From Streptomyces katrae (GTDB lineage Bacteria > Actinomycetota > Actinomycetes > Streptomycetales > Streptomycetaceae), in the NCBI RefSeq assembly GCF_000717655.1, contig NZ_JNZY01000069.1:1-28181 (forward strand): a stretch of DNA of 28,181 nucleotides. Reading direction: 5' to 3'. The notes under the pieces were generated by a model. That model saw only the letters and a program-made list of their open reading frames with translations. It searched no databases and was not told the origin of the DNA. Shown here in pieces: positions 2,289-6,615 of this stretch (position 1 is the stretch's first letter; the number at the start of each line of letters is the position of its first letter). The position numbers and the translations under genes were made by a program.

Positions 2289-2423
2289 GGGACCGAAGGG
2301 ACCAGAGGGACTGAATTTCGCCATTACCCGAAGCGCTTTCCAGCCACCACGTCCGAAAGGAACCGGACGGAACGGGAGAAACCGGGACGAACCAAAGGGT
2401 CTGAAGGGACCGGAGGGACCGAA
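2289..2423 (+). repeat. Two triplets of the 9-bp GGGACYGAA repeat
   Basis: Two blocks of three directly repeated 9-mers: GGGACCGAA, GGGACCAGA, GGGACTGAA at 2289-2315 and GGGTCTGAA, GGGACCGGA, GGGACCGAA at 2397-2423, starting 108 bases apart. Between them lie degenerate relatives (gtccgaaagg, ggaacggga). They fill the gap between the convergent tpg and DUF6009-like genes. The same unit recurs in both orientations at 5781-6408, so these are probably iterons or binding sites for a replicon-encoded protein. Confidence 0.8.
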
Positions 2424-2456
2424 TCCGGCAACTGCCGGCTCAGACGGAAGCCGGCA

Positions 2457-2834
2457 TCAGGCAACCGTCGGCGTGGACAGCCCTCGCTGCGACCGCACGG
2501 TCTTCCGGCCGACCTGCCGGGGTTCGATCGTCCGGGGATCCACGGCCTCGCCCGGCGCGCCCTCGCGGTACAGGCCCTCGGGCTCCGCGTCCCGGTCGTG
2601 CGGCAGCAGGTAGAAGACGCGCCGCTTCTGCAGGCCGCTGTCGGGGTCCGCTTCCGCGGTGTCGCCGAGCTCGGTGAAACCGATCATGCGCCCATCGCGG
2701 TGGTAGCGCGGCTTCCCCCGGCGCCGGGGGGTCTTGTCCAGGGCCTGGCGCACGTAATCGAGCTCTTCAGGGTCCTCCAGCCACACCACTTTGTCCTCGT
2801 GGGCGAGATCGCTTGAAGTCAGTAGCGAGCTCAT
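2457..2834 (-). CDS. DUF6009-like small protein next to the replication genes
   Basis: The product is 125 residues, starting MSSLLTSSDLAHEDKVVWLE. The ATG at 2832-2834 was chosen over upstream starts because AGGAAGG lies nine bases before it and the frame upstream lacks family-like sequence. Recognisable pieces are EELDYVRQALDK, KPRYHRDGRMIGF, RRVFYLLPHDRDAEPEGLYR and EAVDPRTIEPRQVG. This pattern matches what I recall of DUF6009, a family found on actinomycete plasmids and chromosome arms; its function is unknown. No membrane segment, signal peptide or known catalytic motif is visible. It lies downstream of the helicase gene on the same strand after a gap of about 180 bases and could be the last gene of the replication operon. 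A role in replication or copy control is only suggested by position. Confidence 0.7.
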   Translation of the reverse strand: MSSLLTSSDLAHEDKVVWLEDPEELDYVRQALDKTPRRRGKPRYHRDGRMIGFTELGDTAEADPDSGLQKRRVFYLLPHDRDAEPEGLYREGAPGEAVDPRTIEPRQVGRKTVRSQRGLSTPTVA

Positions 2835-3014
2835 GGCCTGGATCCTTCCTCGTTCACGTAGGCCCTTCCGGGCCCCTGGTTCCGCCACGCCGCGAGCGGC
2901 GCCGAAGCCGGTATCCGGCAGGCCCCTGCGGACCGCCGTCGGCTGGTGGATCTGTTCATCGTCCTTGTCCATCGTAGGCGTGCCCGCCCCCGGGCGGTGG
3001 CACACGTGGGCCTT

Positions 3015-4613
3015 TCACGGCGCGCTTGCCCTGTTCGCCTCGCGCGGGGTCTGTGCTTCGTCGGCCAGGAGCGCCAGGCCGGGGTAGAACTTCTGCCCGT
3101 TCGAGCGGAGCATCTCATTGGGCGAGGCGACGCCGACTTCGGCTCGAATACGTGTGGCGAACGCGCGGGTCGTGGCGGGACGAAGGCCCTCGCCGTCGAG
3201 ACACCACGCACTGTACGCGCGGTACAGCGCTCCCTGCTCCACCTTCAGATCACGCGGATCGGGCAGCTCCACCCCGGTCGTGCAGCACTCGGCGAGGAAC
3301 CGCCCGATGTGGTCCTCGGTCGTGGCGTACGCCTGCGTGGCAGTACGGACCACGCTCGGCCCGGTCAGGGCCGGCTTGGTGGCGAGATAGGCCTTGGCCC
3401 CTTGGATCATCCAGTGGAGGATGCCCGGACCCTCCTCCTGTACGAGCGCCTCCGCCAGGTTGTCGATCTTCCTGTGGTCGGGGACGACCTTCTCGAAGGG
3501 GATCAGCCGGATCCGGCGCCAGAAGGCATGGCCGCCCGTGCCGACCTCCGGGCGGTGGTTGCCCAGGAGCCACAGCTTGTGCGTCGGCTCGAAGCTGAAG
3601 AAGTCCTGCCGCATCCGCCGCGCCTTGAGCCGGTCACCGCCGGTCAGCAGCTTGACCCGCGCCTCGTCGAACTTGTCGTGCGGCTTGAGCTCGCTGCAGA
3701 CGAACAGGCGCCGGCCGTGCAGTTCCGTCAGCTCGGTCGAGTGCTCGTTGAACTTGCCGCGCTCCATCAGGAACCCGGGCGGGGCCACGTCCGCGTAGTC
3801 CCCGAGGATCTTGATGACGACGTCGAGGAGCGCCGACTTGCCGTTGGCGCCGACGCCGTAGAGGAAGGGCAGCACCTGGCCGCCCACGTCACCGGTGATG
3901 GAGTAGCCGAGCAGGAGATGAAGAAAGTTGATCATCTCCTTGCCCTTTTCGTCATCTCCGAACGTTTGGTTCAGGAAGGCGTGGAACCGGGGCGTGGGCA
4001 TGGCCTCGGGGGCCAGGTAGGTGGCGCGCGAGTGCAGGTCCCGGGTGGGGTCCGGCTTGTGCAGGTCACCGGTGCGCAGGTCGACGACACCTGCGGGGGT
4101 GCACAGCGCATACTTGTCGCCGTCCAGGACGTCCGGGTCCAGGGCGAGTTCGGGGGAGGCCTTGGCCTGCGTGAGCATCGCCTTCACGCCCGAGGTGGAC
4201 ATGGCGCGCTTGCGGTGCTGCGACAGCTCCCGGTCGGTGAAGACACCCCGGGGGTCGTGGGTGGGCAGTTCCTCCGCCATGTCCCCGGCGGCCCAGATCG
4301 CGGCCTTCTCCCCGCCGGTGCGCTTCCACCGGAACTCGTCCCACACGTACCAGCCCAGTCCCTCCACGTGCCGGAAGCGGTTGTGGTGGAGGTGGGCGAA
4401 CAGCTTCGCGTTGCCGCGGTCGCTGAGGTTCTGCAGCAGACCCGTCGCGACGAAATCGGCCCCGCCGCCCCCGGCCGCCGGGGCCGCGCCCTGCTGGGCA
4501 GGCAGGCGCCTGCCGCGCGCGGCAGCAGGGACGTCGGTCTTCTCGGTGGTGAACGCAGCAAGCTGTTCCGCCGCCGCCTGGGCGTTGAACCCCGTGCTTC
4601 CGGCGCTGCTCAT
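3015..4613 (-). CDS. Plasmid/phage-type SF3 helicase (D5/P4 primase-helicase C-terminal type)
   Basis: The product has 532 residues. The N-terminal 50 are low complexity and Ala-rich. About 60-210 resembles the D5 N-terminal region (GWYVWDEFRWKR, CTPAGVVDLRTGDL). The superfamily 3 helicase core follows: Walker A GVGANGKS at 253-260, Walker B RLFVCSE at 302-308, KLLTGGDRLKAR at 321-332, motif C KLWLLGNHRPEV at 346-357, and the arginine pair in FWRRIR at 364-369. The family acts as a hexameric replicative helicase initiating plasmid or phage DNA synthesis. The ATG at 4611-4613 overlaps the TGA of the primase-polymerase gene (ATGA), so translation is probably coupled. The frame stays open upstream to 5504, but that part is the antisense-like shadow of the primase gene. 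This is most likely the replicon's own initiator helicase. Confidence 0.9.
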   Translation of the reverse strand: MSSAGSTGFNAQAAAEQLAAFTTEKTDVPAAARGRRLPAQQGAAPAAGGGGADFVATGLLQNLSDRGNAKLFAHLHHNRFRHVEGLGWYVWDEFRWKRTGGEKAAIWAAGDMAEELPTHDPRGVFTDRELSQHRKRAMSTSGVKAMLTQAKASPELALDPDVLDGDKYALCTPAGVVDLRTGDLHKPDPTRDLHSRATYLAPEAMPTPRFHAFLNQTFGDDEKGKEMINFLHLLLGYSITGDVGGQVLPFLYGVGANGKSALLDVVIKILGDYADVAPPGFLMERGKFNEHSTELTELHGRRLFVCSELKPHDKFDEARVKLLTGGDRLKARRMRQDFFSFEPTHKLWLLGNHRPEVGTGGHAFWRRIRLIPFEKVVPDHRKIDNLAEALVQEEGPGILHWMIQGAKAYLATKPALTGPSVVRTATQAYATTEDHIGRFLAECCTTGVELPDPRDLKVEQGALYRAYSAWCLDGEGLRPATTRAFATRIRAEVGVASPNEMLRSNGQKFYPGLALLADEAQTPREANRASAP

Positions 4614-5698
4614 GGGCGTTCCTCGGGATGGATCGGTCGGTCGCTTCCGGCACGCAGCCCCGCTTCGACGATGAGGACGTTGCGGCGCGTCTGGTGGGGT
4701 CGTGCGTGGTCCGCGGCCTCGAGGAGCAGCCGACGGCATTCCCCGGCGGCGAGGTGGCCCCCCGCGGCCAGTCCACCGGCGGTGAAGGCCGCCCGGTTGA
4801 GCTTCTCGCTGAAGGCCGTTCCGGCCGGACTGGCCCCGCAGGCCCGTACCTCCTCCAGGAGCCCCGCCAGAGCCCGCTGCCCGAGCTGGAGGCCCCCGCG
4901 GCCCCGCGGCCCGCGCACGGGGCCCACAGGGGCCGCTACGGGCTCCACGGCGGCCGTGTCGACGCCGTGGCCGGTCCGTACGAGTTCGGCGGTCAGCCAC
5001 AGCGGCAGGGCCGCGGGCAGGCGCGCGCCGGGCAGCGCCTCGTACACGCCGGCGGCCGTGCGCGTCGTGGGCGCCACGATGTAGCCGCCGACGGCTCGTA
5101 CGTCGACCTGCCAGGCCAGCGCGACCTTCGAGCTCGATCCGCTGGAACACCGCATGCGGGGGCCGCCCTTGGGCACCCGGTACCAGATGTGCATCCCTCC
5201 TGAGGGCGTACGGACCCGCAGGGTCGCCGTGTCCTCGCAGGGGTTGGGCCGGGACCGGTACGCGGCCAGCAGCGCCAAGGTGTCGTAGCCGCTGCCGAGT
5301 CCGGTCAGGTCGACCCGCTCGTCGATGGGGATGCCGGGCAGCAACCGGTCCCTGGCGGGCACGGAGGCGGCATGCGCATCGACATCGATGACCACGAGCC
5401 CGGCGGGCCCGCAGGAGACCCCGATCCCGAAGTCGGGCTCGGCCGCCCACCACTCCCGCAGCGTGGGGAGGTCCGTGGTGGCTGCATGGAACCCGTGGCA
5501 CCAACGTCCCCGGGAACGGCAGGTGCAGTCCTGCGCGGAATGCAGACCGCCCCGGCAGTCGGGGCAGTTCGGAGCCGGCGTCTTGGTCCCTGGGGCCAGG
5601 GGATGGACCGGATACCCGCGCAGGGCCATCCAGGTCGCCACGTCCAGTGCCGTCCCGCCACTCACGCCCTGGGGCAGGTTCTGGGAATAGACGGACAC
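4610..5698 (-). CDS. Bifunctional DNA primase/polymerase (Prim-Pol, archaeo-eukaryotic primase superfamily)
   Basis: The product has 362 residues from GTG 5696-5698, with AAGGAAG six bases upstream (about 5704-5710). The fold is recognised from the N-terminal ALDVATWMALRGYPVHPLAPGTKTP, the acidic VVIDVDAH at 102-109 carrying the predicted metal-binding Asp105 and Asp107, the SGGMHIWYRVPKG block at 166-178 with its histidine, and QVDVRAVGGYIVAP at 197-210. A Cys-rich insert at 45-68 (CPDCRGG, CTCRSRGRWCHGF) looks like a zinc-binding element. The family makes primers and extends DNA at plasmid and phage origins. The downstream helicase gene overlaps by four bases, so primase and helicase are made as a unit. 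The C-terminal 130 residues are Ala/Gly/Pro-rich and not recognised. Repeats begin about 80 bases upstream of the start, so the promoter may lie within the iteron region. Confidence 0.9.
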   Translation of the reverse strand: MSVYSQNLPQGVSGGTALDVATWMALRGYPVHPLAPGTKTPAPNCPDCRGGLHSAQDCTCRSRGRWCHGFHAATTDLPTLREWWAAEPDFGIGVSCGPAGLVVIDVDAHAASVPARDRLLPGIPIDERVDLTGLGSGYDTLALLAAYRSRPNPCEDTATLRVRTPSGGMHIWYRVPKGGPRMRCSSGSSSKVALAWQVDVRAVGGYIVAPTTRTAAGVYEALPGARLPAALPLWLTAELVRTGHGVDTAAVEPVAAPVGPVRGPRGRGGLQLGQRALAGLLEEVRACGASPAGTAFSEKLNRAAFTAGGLAAGGHLAAGECRRLLLEAADHARPHQTRRNVLIVEAGLRAGSDRPIHPEERP

Positions 5699-5780
5699 TG
5701 GCTCTTCCTTGACGCGCGTTCAGGGACGGTTCCTCCTGTCCCGGGCTGCTCTCCGAGGTGCTCGTCCGACCTGCACATCA

Positions 5781-6408
5781 GGGACCAGAGGGACTGAAGA
5801 TTCACTATCGCGGAGCGTACCGCAGACATCGCGCAGGCTCCGCCCGATAGAACCGCTGTATTGAGAGTTCAGTCCCTTCAGTCCCTCAGTCCCTGAAGTT
5901 CTACCCCAGTTCGTCCGCAAAAGTTCCGCGATCCACCCCGGTGAACACCCGGGCGTGTCGCAGCACGACCCCCCGTCGGCAAGCGCCGCTCCACCCCTCC
6001 TCCACCAGGACCCGAGAGTCCCTCGGTATGCCGGTCCTCCCCACTCGGAAGCCGACCGGGGTTCCGAGGCCCCCGCCCCGGCGCCCGCACTCACAGGTAC
6101 TGAACGGTCCCTGCCCTCGTTCAGTCCCTCCGCTTTCAGTCCCTCGACAAACATGCAGGTCAGAGGCTCGGGTTCACAATCTCAGGGACTGAAGGGACTC
6201 AGAATCACCACTTCCAGCCTTTACGTGCGTGTGTGTATGCGCGAGCGCGAGAAAGAGTAGGTAGAGGTACCCATGTTCATATCTGGCTCATAACTAGAAA
6301 GTTGAGTCCCTTCGGTCCCTGTTGCAGCGAGCCCGAGCCCCTGACCTGCAGGTTTACGCAGTGACTGAAGGGACAGGGACCGAAGGGTCCGAACGGCGCT
6401 TCAGCCCC
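5781..6408. repeat. Iteron region, candidate replication origin
   Basis: This non-coding stretch between the primase-polymerase start and the DUF5701 gene holds about sixteen units of a 9-mer, GGGACYGAA or its complement TTCRGTCCC. Direct units lie at 5781-5798 (2), 6185-6202 (2) and 6361-6393 (about 4). Inverted units lie at 5868-5893 (3, the last one base short), 6120-6143 (2), 6302-6319 (2) and 6400-6408 (1). Within blocks the spacing is mostly exactly nine bases. Identical units flank the far side of the replication operon at 2289-2423. Repeats of this kind beside a primase-helicase operon are typical of plasmid origins. Binding by any particular protein is inferred. Confidence 0.75.
6203..6300. 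other. Relatively AT-rich stretch inside the iteron region
   Basis: By hand count this stretch is about 48% GC, against surrounding DNA that is clearly above 65%. It includes gttcatatctggctcataac and a purine-rich run (gagaaagagtaggtagagg). It lies between iteron blocks at 6185-6202 and 6302-6319 and is the most likely site of duplex opening if this is the origin. No reading frame is convincing here. Confidence 0.5.
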
Positions 6409-6615
6409 TGTCCGGGGAGGGGGGTGCGGAGGGAGGGGTGCGGCTCGTCACCAAGTCCGTCATCCGAAAAGCGAAGCACCTTCACCACCGCCTTCCCCCG
6501 CACTCGGGCCACGGCCGAGCCGGTGTTCCCCCGCGCGGCTCCACCCACAGGGAACGTTTCGACGGCCCACCTCGTTGCCGCGGGACCACCACCCCCACGC
6601 GAAGCCAGAGGTCCC

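Follow-up and report, generated by a model that had tools for sequence, protein, structure and literature searches.

The DNA stretch analysed here (the window) is the entire 28,181-bp contig C69 (NZ_JNZY01000069.1) of the 8.58 Mb draft genome of Streptomyces katrae. It contains a replication (rep) operon coding for a bifunctional primase/polymerase (Prim-Pol), a D5/P4-family helicase of superfamily 3 (SF3), called D5 below, and a protein of the family DUF6009. The repeat GGGACYGAA, noticed on both sides of this operon in an earlier note on the sequence, is confirmed as real. On the basis of the repeats, their architecture, their conservation in relatives, the match between repeat type and protein clade and the joint presence of two repeat types (A and B) in single genomes, we estimate the probability at about 0.82 that the repeats are iterons, that is, sites at which an initiator binds, and belong to a Prim-Pol/D5-helicase replicon of a linear Streptomyces plasmid.

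Repeats and the symmetric core

The two gaps flanking the operon together contain 11 exact copies of GGGACYGAA (0.07 expected from dinucleotide shuffles of the gaps), 19 units with at most one mismatch (1.2 expected) and 26 with at most two, so that the earlier figure of about 22 units is a fair one. The left gap (2276–2456) holds three exact units and five with at most one mismatch, against means of 0.03 and 0.37 in 1000 dinucleotide shuffles per gap; the right gap (5699–6614) holds eight and 14, against 0.04 and 0.83. Over the entire window the total is mildly high (28 units with at most one mismatch versus 16.1 expected, matched by one of 100 shuffles): it is the clustering of the repeat, not its total count in the window, that matters. 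The nine-base spacing described earlier is true for several pairs with up to two mismatches (2289/2298/2307, 2397/2406/2415, 5781/5790, 5868/5877, 6185/6194, 6302/6311 and 6376/6385), but steps of 8 and 15 are also present. Outside the two gaps there is one exact unit, at 359–367 within the neighbouring telomere gene tap. The tap gene of the related plasmid NZ_CP107984 (locus L284, 23908) likewise contains a single exact unit, probably a coding coincidence.

The repeat is not scattered over the genome. The double unit, represented by the 14-mer GGGACYGAAGGGAC, is concentrated at the window locus: with at most one mismatch it occurs at 16 places in the 8.58 Mb, eight of them in the window, and exactly at five places, four of them in the window. 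The reversed pattern, counted for comparison, occurs at 17 places (at most one mismatch). A search of 84,980 species genomes with the longer pattern GGGACYGAAGGGACYGAAGGG, which is absent from the window itself, returned 19 stretches; the titles of 12 name Streptomycetaceae, and six of the 19 have a Prim-Pol in the retrieved DNA.

The right block is organized as a dyad (6120–6394), which we regard as the candidate origin core. Two 82-nt arms (6120–6201 and 6303–6384) form a 76% inverted repeat around approximately 100 nt of 48% GC (6203–6302); this low-GC stretch, already reported for the right flank, includes the run GTGTGTGTATGCGCG and is a candidate unwinding element. Each half-origin carries the box CAGGTCA, recognized from the conservation of the 7-mer in relatives and from the core consensus: at 6156–6162 on the forward strand in the left half and, in mirror orientation (TGACCTG on the forward strand), at 6342–6348 on the reverse strand in the right half. 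The mirror symmetry of the block had been overlooked, as had the second conserved box, the neighbouring tap–tpg genes and the sister module described below. A separate group of iterons lies closer to the Prim-Pol promoter (5781–5893, with forward units at 5781 and 5790 and reverse units at 5868, 5877 and 5885) and is a candidate operator.

The modules of relatives carry iterons of the sequence GGGACYGAA (type A, as in the window) or GCGACYGAA (type B). CAGGTCA is present on either strand in 105 of 119 upstream regions of relatives. These regions contain 842 exact iteron sites, for which the commonest spacing is 9 bp between units on the same strand and 50–52, 59–66 or 73 bp between divergent units. 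When the cores with both boxes were aligned (39 of 50 A and 30 of 69 B modules), a single plan common to both types emerged: outer iterons, the element AAA..GCAGGTCAGAG, an inner iteron doublet and the low-GC centre, followed by the mirror image. The centre of the aligned cores, where the mean GC content falls to 0.45–0.46, contains an alternating GTGTGCG-like run. In 116 of 121 modules an iteron-like GNGACYSA lies no more than 130 bp from the estimated start of Prim-Pol, and the proposal that the repeats control copy number is therefore plausible. Host DnaA was rejected as the initiator, since an exact TTRTCCACA box occurs once in 121 upstream regions and not at all in the gap of the window. 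Repeats of a different kind (CGTGATAG, CGTAATAG, CGTGATAA and CGTAATCA) are also present several times upstream of modules L047, L051, L054 and L109.

The block downstream of DUF6009 (2289–2423, forward strand), found in the repeat scan, consists of two triplets in 9-bp steps (2289/2298/2307 and 2397/2406/2415). Among A modules, at least two exact units downstream of DUF6009 are found in the window, in its near kin L077–L081 and in L104; L082 lacks them, and the other A modules have at most one. Six B modules also have at least two (L124, L130, L131, L133, L160 and L167). In L124 the dyad, complete with both boxes, is found on the downstream side of DUF6009, with one exact unit upstream of Prim-Pol; the linear Streptomyces plasmid pSCL4 likewise has its core downstream, with one exact and one imperfect box. 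Partial sets of elements are found downstream in L130, L133 and L167, and arrays on both sides in L131 and L160. Because the core lies downstream in L124 and pSCL4, the origin can apparently occupy either end of the rep operon, and the left block of the window is most plausibly an auxiliary array or a remnant of one, mainly a feature of its lineage. Blocks beyond both ends of the operon, pointed out as unusual in the earlier note, thus exist in the window and are no general rule among relatives.

Iteron types and their co-residence

To type the modules, exact GNGACYGAA sites were counted in the 1300 bp upstream of 115 Prim-Pol reading frames (two with less DNA; the broken B gene L115 counted as two frames). 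There are 47 frames with G only at the second base, 61 with C only, one with both and six with neither; five A modules were typed on two sites. The second base is strongly restricted upstream of Prim-Pol (148 kb; G 375, C 389, T 16, A 12), compared with coding DNA of twice this length (294 kb; G 2, C 23, A 4, T 3). The total of 135 Prim-Pol frames comprises 50 A, 71 B, two designated 'A?' (too few sites or a distant protein) and 12 untyped. A first tree was built from 111 typed proteins of 330–420 residues, without a stop, with more than 47% identity and after removal of duplicates. A branch with 100% support separates the 50 A rows from all others, and iteron type changes once over the 111 rows. 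The shifted frame L186r1708, on a long branch, is included in this tree and in the GNGACYSA and D5-loop counts, and was excluded from the residue-difference, spacing, box, core, co-residence, layout, preceding-base, enlarged-tree and DUF6009 counts; L193, a second reading of L129, was excluded from the residue-difference, layout, enlarged-tree and preceding-base analyses.

A family search of 200 genomes gave 37 with a Prim-Pol match. The search typed 41 loci, of which L237, L239 and L249 were already known and L277 repeats L134; the 37 new places include 29 B, six A and two untyped, and two of the B loci have one stray G site each. The enlarged tree (115 typed rows, including 34 new loci and about half of the B rows) again has one A/B change, and with an outgroup root A is a group with 94% support. 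The new locus L269 carries A iterons; BLAST places it nearer B, but both the tree and a loop of its D5 (see below) place it in A. The iteron array is found beside the rep operon in relatives, and the two co-occur and co-evolve across Streptomycetaceae. The view of the earlier note that an iteron origin is tied to the primase–helicase operon is well supported by this pattern. Clustering of A sites at the modules is seen on four plasmid contigs (10 of 10, 8 of 12, 8 of 17 and 13 of 14 sites). Extra Prim-Pol copies in genomes that have other modules (the second copy of L104, L178 and L190) have no exact iteron upstream. Another module, L134 (G224:C7), has the unit GGGGCTGAA and a long branch near the A clade; this could represent a fourth iteron letter.

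Co-residence was analysed in 92 genomes, with modules of at least 47% identity. All 26 genomes with exactly two typed modules contain one A and one B; when the types were shuffled, such genomes numbered 12.8 on average and never reached 26 in 20,000 trials. Two others (G149 and G224) combine one B with one untyped module. The three new two-module genomes with typed iterons are all A + B, two of them belonging to other genus codes. G420 carries A and B modules (L267 and L252). G502 has an A module and a truncated one without an exact site, and G447 a B module and a distant untyped one.

The layout could be compared for 25 of the 26 A + B genomes: 10 pairs are tandem from A to B, three divergent, two convergent and one tandem from B to A, and nine are on different contigs. 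The nearest relative is in the same genome for both modules in five of the 25, which indicates that the pairing has often, although not wholly, been reshuffled. G378 (A + A + B) is the only genome with two A modules. The first belongs to a supported five-member subclade, with C as the base before the GGGACY core in 66 of 72 sites, and the other has A at this position in 17 of 19 sites; the three modules of G378 therefore have three different iterons. G179 contains a third copy that is closest to B on the tree and lacks an iteron even at one mismatch.

Proposed origin, candidate reader and alternatives

We propose that the segment 6120–6394 is the origin. Each half would present its outer iterons, then a CAGGTCA box, then an iteron doublet directed towards the low-GC centre, so that two helicase rings could be loaded back to back to give bidirectional forks; Tap and Tpg, the products of the neighbouring telomere genes, would then finish the plasmid ends. 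The initiator bound at 5781–5893, beside the Prim-Pol promoter, would repress its own operon, and 2289–2423 would be an extra binding block, found mainly in the lineage of the window. Sister modules may be distinguished by whether their iterons begin with GG or GC, a difference at the second base, allowing A and B origins to work on one plasmid without cross-talk. Origin activity, the binding protein, autoregulation and compatibility as the cause of the A + B pairs are what we infer from the sequence data. A more general version, to which we give about even chances, is that a small iteron code (AGGGACYGAA, CGGGACYGAM, AGCGACYGAA and perhaps GGGGCTGAA) within a fixed symmetric origin sets compatibility. 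Replicons with different letters would then coexist in a cell, even as paired working origins on one plasmid, and copies with the same letter would be excluded or stripped of their iterons.

The three rep genes are encoded on the reverse strand: Prim-Pol first (4610–5698; PF09250, 112 bits), then D5 (3015–4613; PF08706 and TIGR01613) and DUF6009 (2457–2834; PF19472, 210 bits). DUF6009 follows D5 in 105 of 108 typed modules with more than 3.6 kb of DNA downstream, and no solved structure matched it by sequence or fold. The AlphaFold2 model of D5 (mean pLDDT 66.6, with the ATPase core poorly modelled) contains a C-terminal winged helix at residues ~460–515, and its Foldseek matches include AsfvPrimPol and mpox E5. 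According to the families and the model, D5 thus combines an SF3 helicase with a C-terminal winged helix, as in P4/SaPI-like initiator helicases.

A and B are separated (at least 80%) by 3 of the 362 residues of Prim-Pol, 32 of the 532 residues of D5 and 10 of the 125 residues of DUF6009. The changes fixed in the subclade with C before the core (A-prime, five rows) number one, 20 and five, respectively, and eight of the 20 in D5 fall within the winged helix (P = 0.0004). A loop motif of D5 also follows the type: HST in all 48 A proteins and HP in 57 of the 59 B proteins, with the motif not found in the other two B. In the new loci the loop agrees with the type in five of five A and 29 of 29 B where it was found (three are plasmid records); it was not covered in two A and two B. 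The earlier note had suggested Prim-Pol or DUF6009 as the reader of the repeats. The D5 winged-helix C-terminus appears likelier, with weak support; the analogues SaPI Rep, Cch2 and P4 alpha lead us to favour D5 at moderate confidence.

Several observations weigh against the proposed origin and its code. The strict pair of boxes is present in 39 of 50 A modules but in only 30 of 69 B modules. Clustering within the module's kilobase is weaker for B sites (3 of 7, 5 of 8 and 3 of 5), a single site is the basis for typing four B modules, and some relatives (the second copy of L104, L134 and L178) have no exact iterons. With an outgroup, B is not one group (two changes) and may be paraphyletic to A. 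The A/B differences in D5 are not focused in the winged helix (3 of 32, P = 0.68). A degree of common ancestry is evident in the A + B pairing (Mantel r 0.17, p 0.026), and near-identical copies of the same type could have been collapsed in draft assemblies. Finally, the maximum of cumulative GC skew lies near the module in G057 (51 vs 56.5 kb) and G218 (134 vs 131 kb) but away from it on G318:C2, G004:C4 and G107:C3. The contigs used were G057:C2 (minus its last 509 bases), G218:C2, G318:C2, G004:C4 (100/109 kb) and G107:C3 (73.5/90 kb).

This inconsistent skew at the array, together with the iteron-like motifs close to Prim-Pol, could also be expected if the repeats were operators that regulate the rep operon (or tpg) only, the origin being elsewhere, for example within a rep gene or in the B module. 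We consider this improbable: a dyad with mirrored boxes and a low-GC centre exceeds the needs of an operator, and in pSCL4 and L124 the dyad is at the downstream end of the operon, a long way from the promoter. The earlier note had named a partition site as an alternative; that the repeats are a centromere (parS) recognized by the plasmid ParB, whose gene lies beyond tap, seems very improbable indeed. Clustered direct and inverted repeats fit a centromere, and parA/parB adjoin tap on close complete plasmids. However, the repeat follows the rep genes and the array is not tied to parAB: iteron type tracks the Prim-Pol/D5/DUF6009 clade (no direct search for ParB sites was made), the B module has its own variant array, and where the pair has been rearranged the arrays are still beside the rep genes of the module. 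A phage origin was rejected; there are 17 weak Prim-Pol matches in phage records, none covering 80% of the query.

The A + B pairs might, alternatively, reflect the inheritance of one old composite plasmid, the one-base difference being drift in two ancient lineages and not a specificity code. The Mantel correlation and the frequent tandem arrangement with A before B (10 of 25 pairs) are in favour of this explanation, which we regard as unlikely, though less so than the operators. The two modules share their nearest relative in only five of 25 cases, divergent, convergent and B-to-A layouts also exist, A + B is found in two other genus codes, and in the sole A + A + B genome a further base distinguishes the two A modules.

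Telomere genes and related replicons

The left end of the window contains, on the forward strand, the genes tap (telomere-associated protein; 2–1714, NCBIfam NF047542, 906 bits), whose 5' end is lost at the contig edge, and tpg (telomere terminal protein; 1721–2275, NCBIfam NF047541, 299 bits). With the full Tap of NZ_CP107984 as a tblastn query, residues 287–857 are present in the window and residues 1–229 match the right end of contig C47 (L281); tap is thus split over C69 and C47. Both contigs are collinear, with gaps, to NZ_CP107984, where their ends are 84 bases apart, which indicates that they adjoin each other on a single plasmid. A second Prim-Pol module, with six GCGACYGAA units (B type), is present on C47, and NZ_CP107984 also has two Prim-Pol modules, at 235.1 and 210.3 kb. 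Since C47 adjoins C69 and carries this second module, the genome very probably has an A and a B rep module on the same plasmid, separated by about 23 kb.

Two complete linear plasmids share the gene order Prim-Pol, D5, DUF6009, Tpg, Tap, ParB, ParA; their Tpg and Tap are annotated as regulators and were identified by position, Tap also by tblastn. The stretch of this genome that matches the parA/parB region is on C47. As tap–tpg are adjacent and the layout is common to complete linear plasmids, the rep locus looks like the maintenance region of such a plasmid. The plasmid of the window is itself probably linear, judging from the adjacent tap–tpg, the linear complete relatives and the pSCL4 homologue. 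Among plasmid records with relatives of its Prim-Pol, 335 of 360 are Streptomyces.

The minimal origin of SCP1 consists of two genes and non-coding DNA. Linear Streptomyces plasmids of the SCP1/pSCL4 type have, like the window, a primase/helicase gene pair beside non-coding DNA. The pSCL4 plasmid has a relative of the window Prim-Pol (55% identity) and B iterons in a dyad; the likeness to SCP1 runs through pSCL4 and gene content. As to a central origin, the module is near the middle of pSCL4 (947 kb of 1796 kb) but near the end of the record in a close relative (6 kb of 430 kb), and the plasmid of the window is incomplete. The pSCL4 replication system is called similar to that of SCP1 in a passage of PMC13152386.

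Other systems are more distant. The sections consulted of PMC3583192 describe pWTY27 as having repA/repB with a predicted primase/polymerase, together with an iteron that RepA binds and that includes direct and inverted repeats, and pFP1 and pFP11 as having rep and an iteron. The pWTY27 repeat is different (GTGGGAAC), and its binder RepA is a protein of 522 residues; identity between the window Prim-Pol, used as the query, and that of the Y27 plasmid is only 33%, over 42% of the query. In staphylococcal islands, according to the part of PMC7581432 consulted, the C-terminal domain of the SCCmec helicase Cch2 binds short iterons that lie downstream of the gene encoding the helicase; the same is cited for SaPI Rep. 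Two hexamers are proposed, and the SCCmec primase partner shares the operon; this primase is the A-family CCPol-MP and not a Prim-Pol. P4 alpha and pRN1 ORF904 share primase, SF3 helicase and winged helix with the window system, and the winged helix of P4 alpha binds origin repeats (PMC4234260, in the sections consulted). Unlike in the window, these functions reside in one polypeptide; the P4 primase is of the Toprim type, and for pRN1 the same sections give a proposed origin downstream of the rep gene with a stem-loop and no iterons. In the literature searched we found no account of a two-letter iteron code or of such paired modules; the repeat itself is not claimed to be unpublished. With this code and the pairing of its modules, the window appears to represent a new and well-supported member of the linear plasmid replicons of SCP1-like type.

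Such replicons are common: a close Prim-Pol relative (E<=1e-60) is found in 93 of 392 Streptomyces genomes sampled, about a quarter, the genome of the window included. Parts of the published reports indicate that such linear plasmids can carry biosynthetic clusters (PMC5331497), that a linear chromosome may depend on plasmid tap–tpg genes (PMC8743545) and that SCP1 has dual ParABS systems (PMC13245405), to which the A and B rep modules are a parallel. If true, a readable origin with a one-base specificity code would allow prediction of which plasmids coexist, would explain why many plasmids have two rep modules, and would offer matched origins for Streptomyces vectors.

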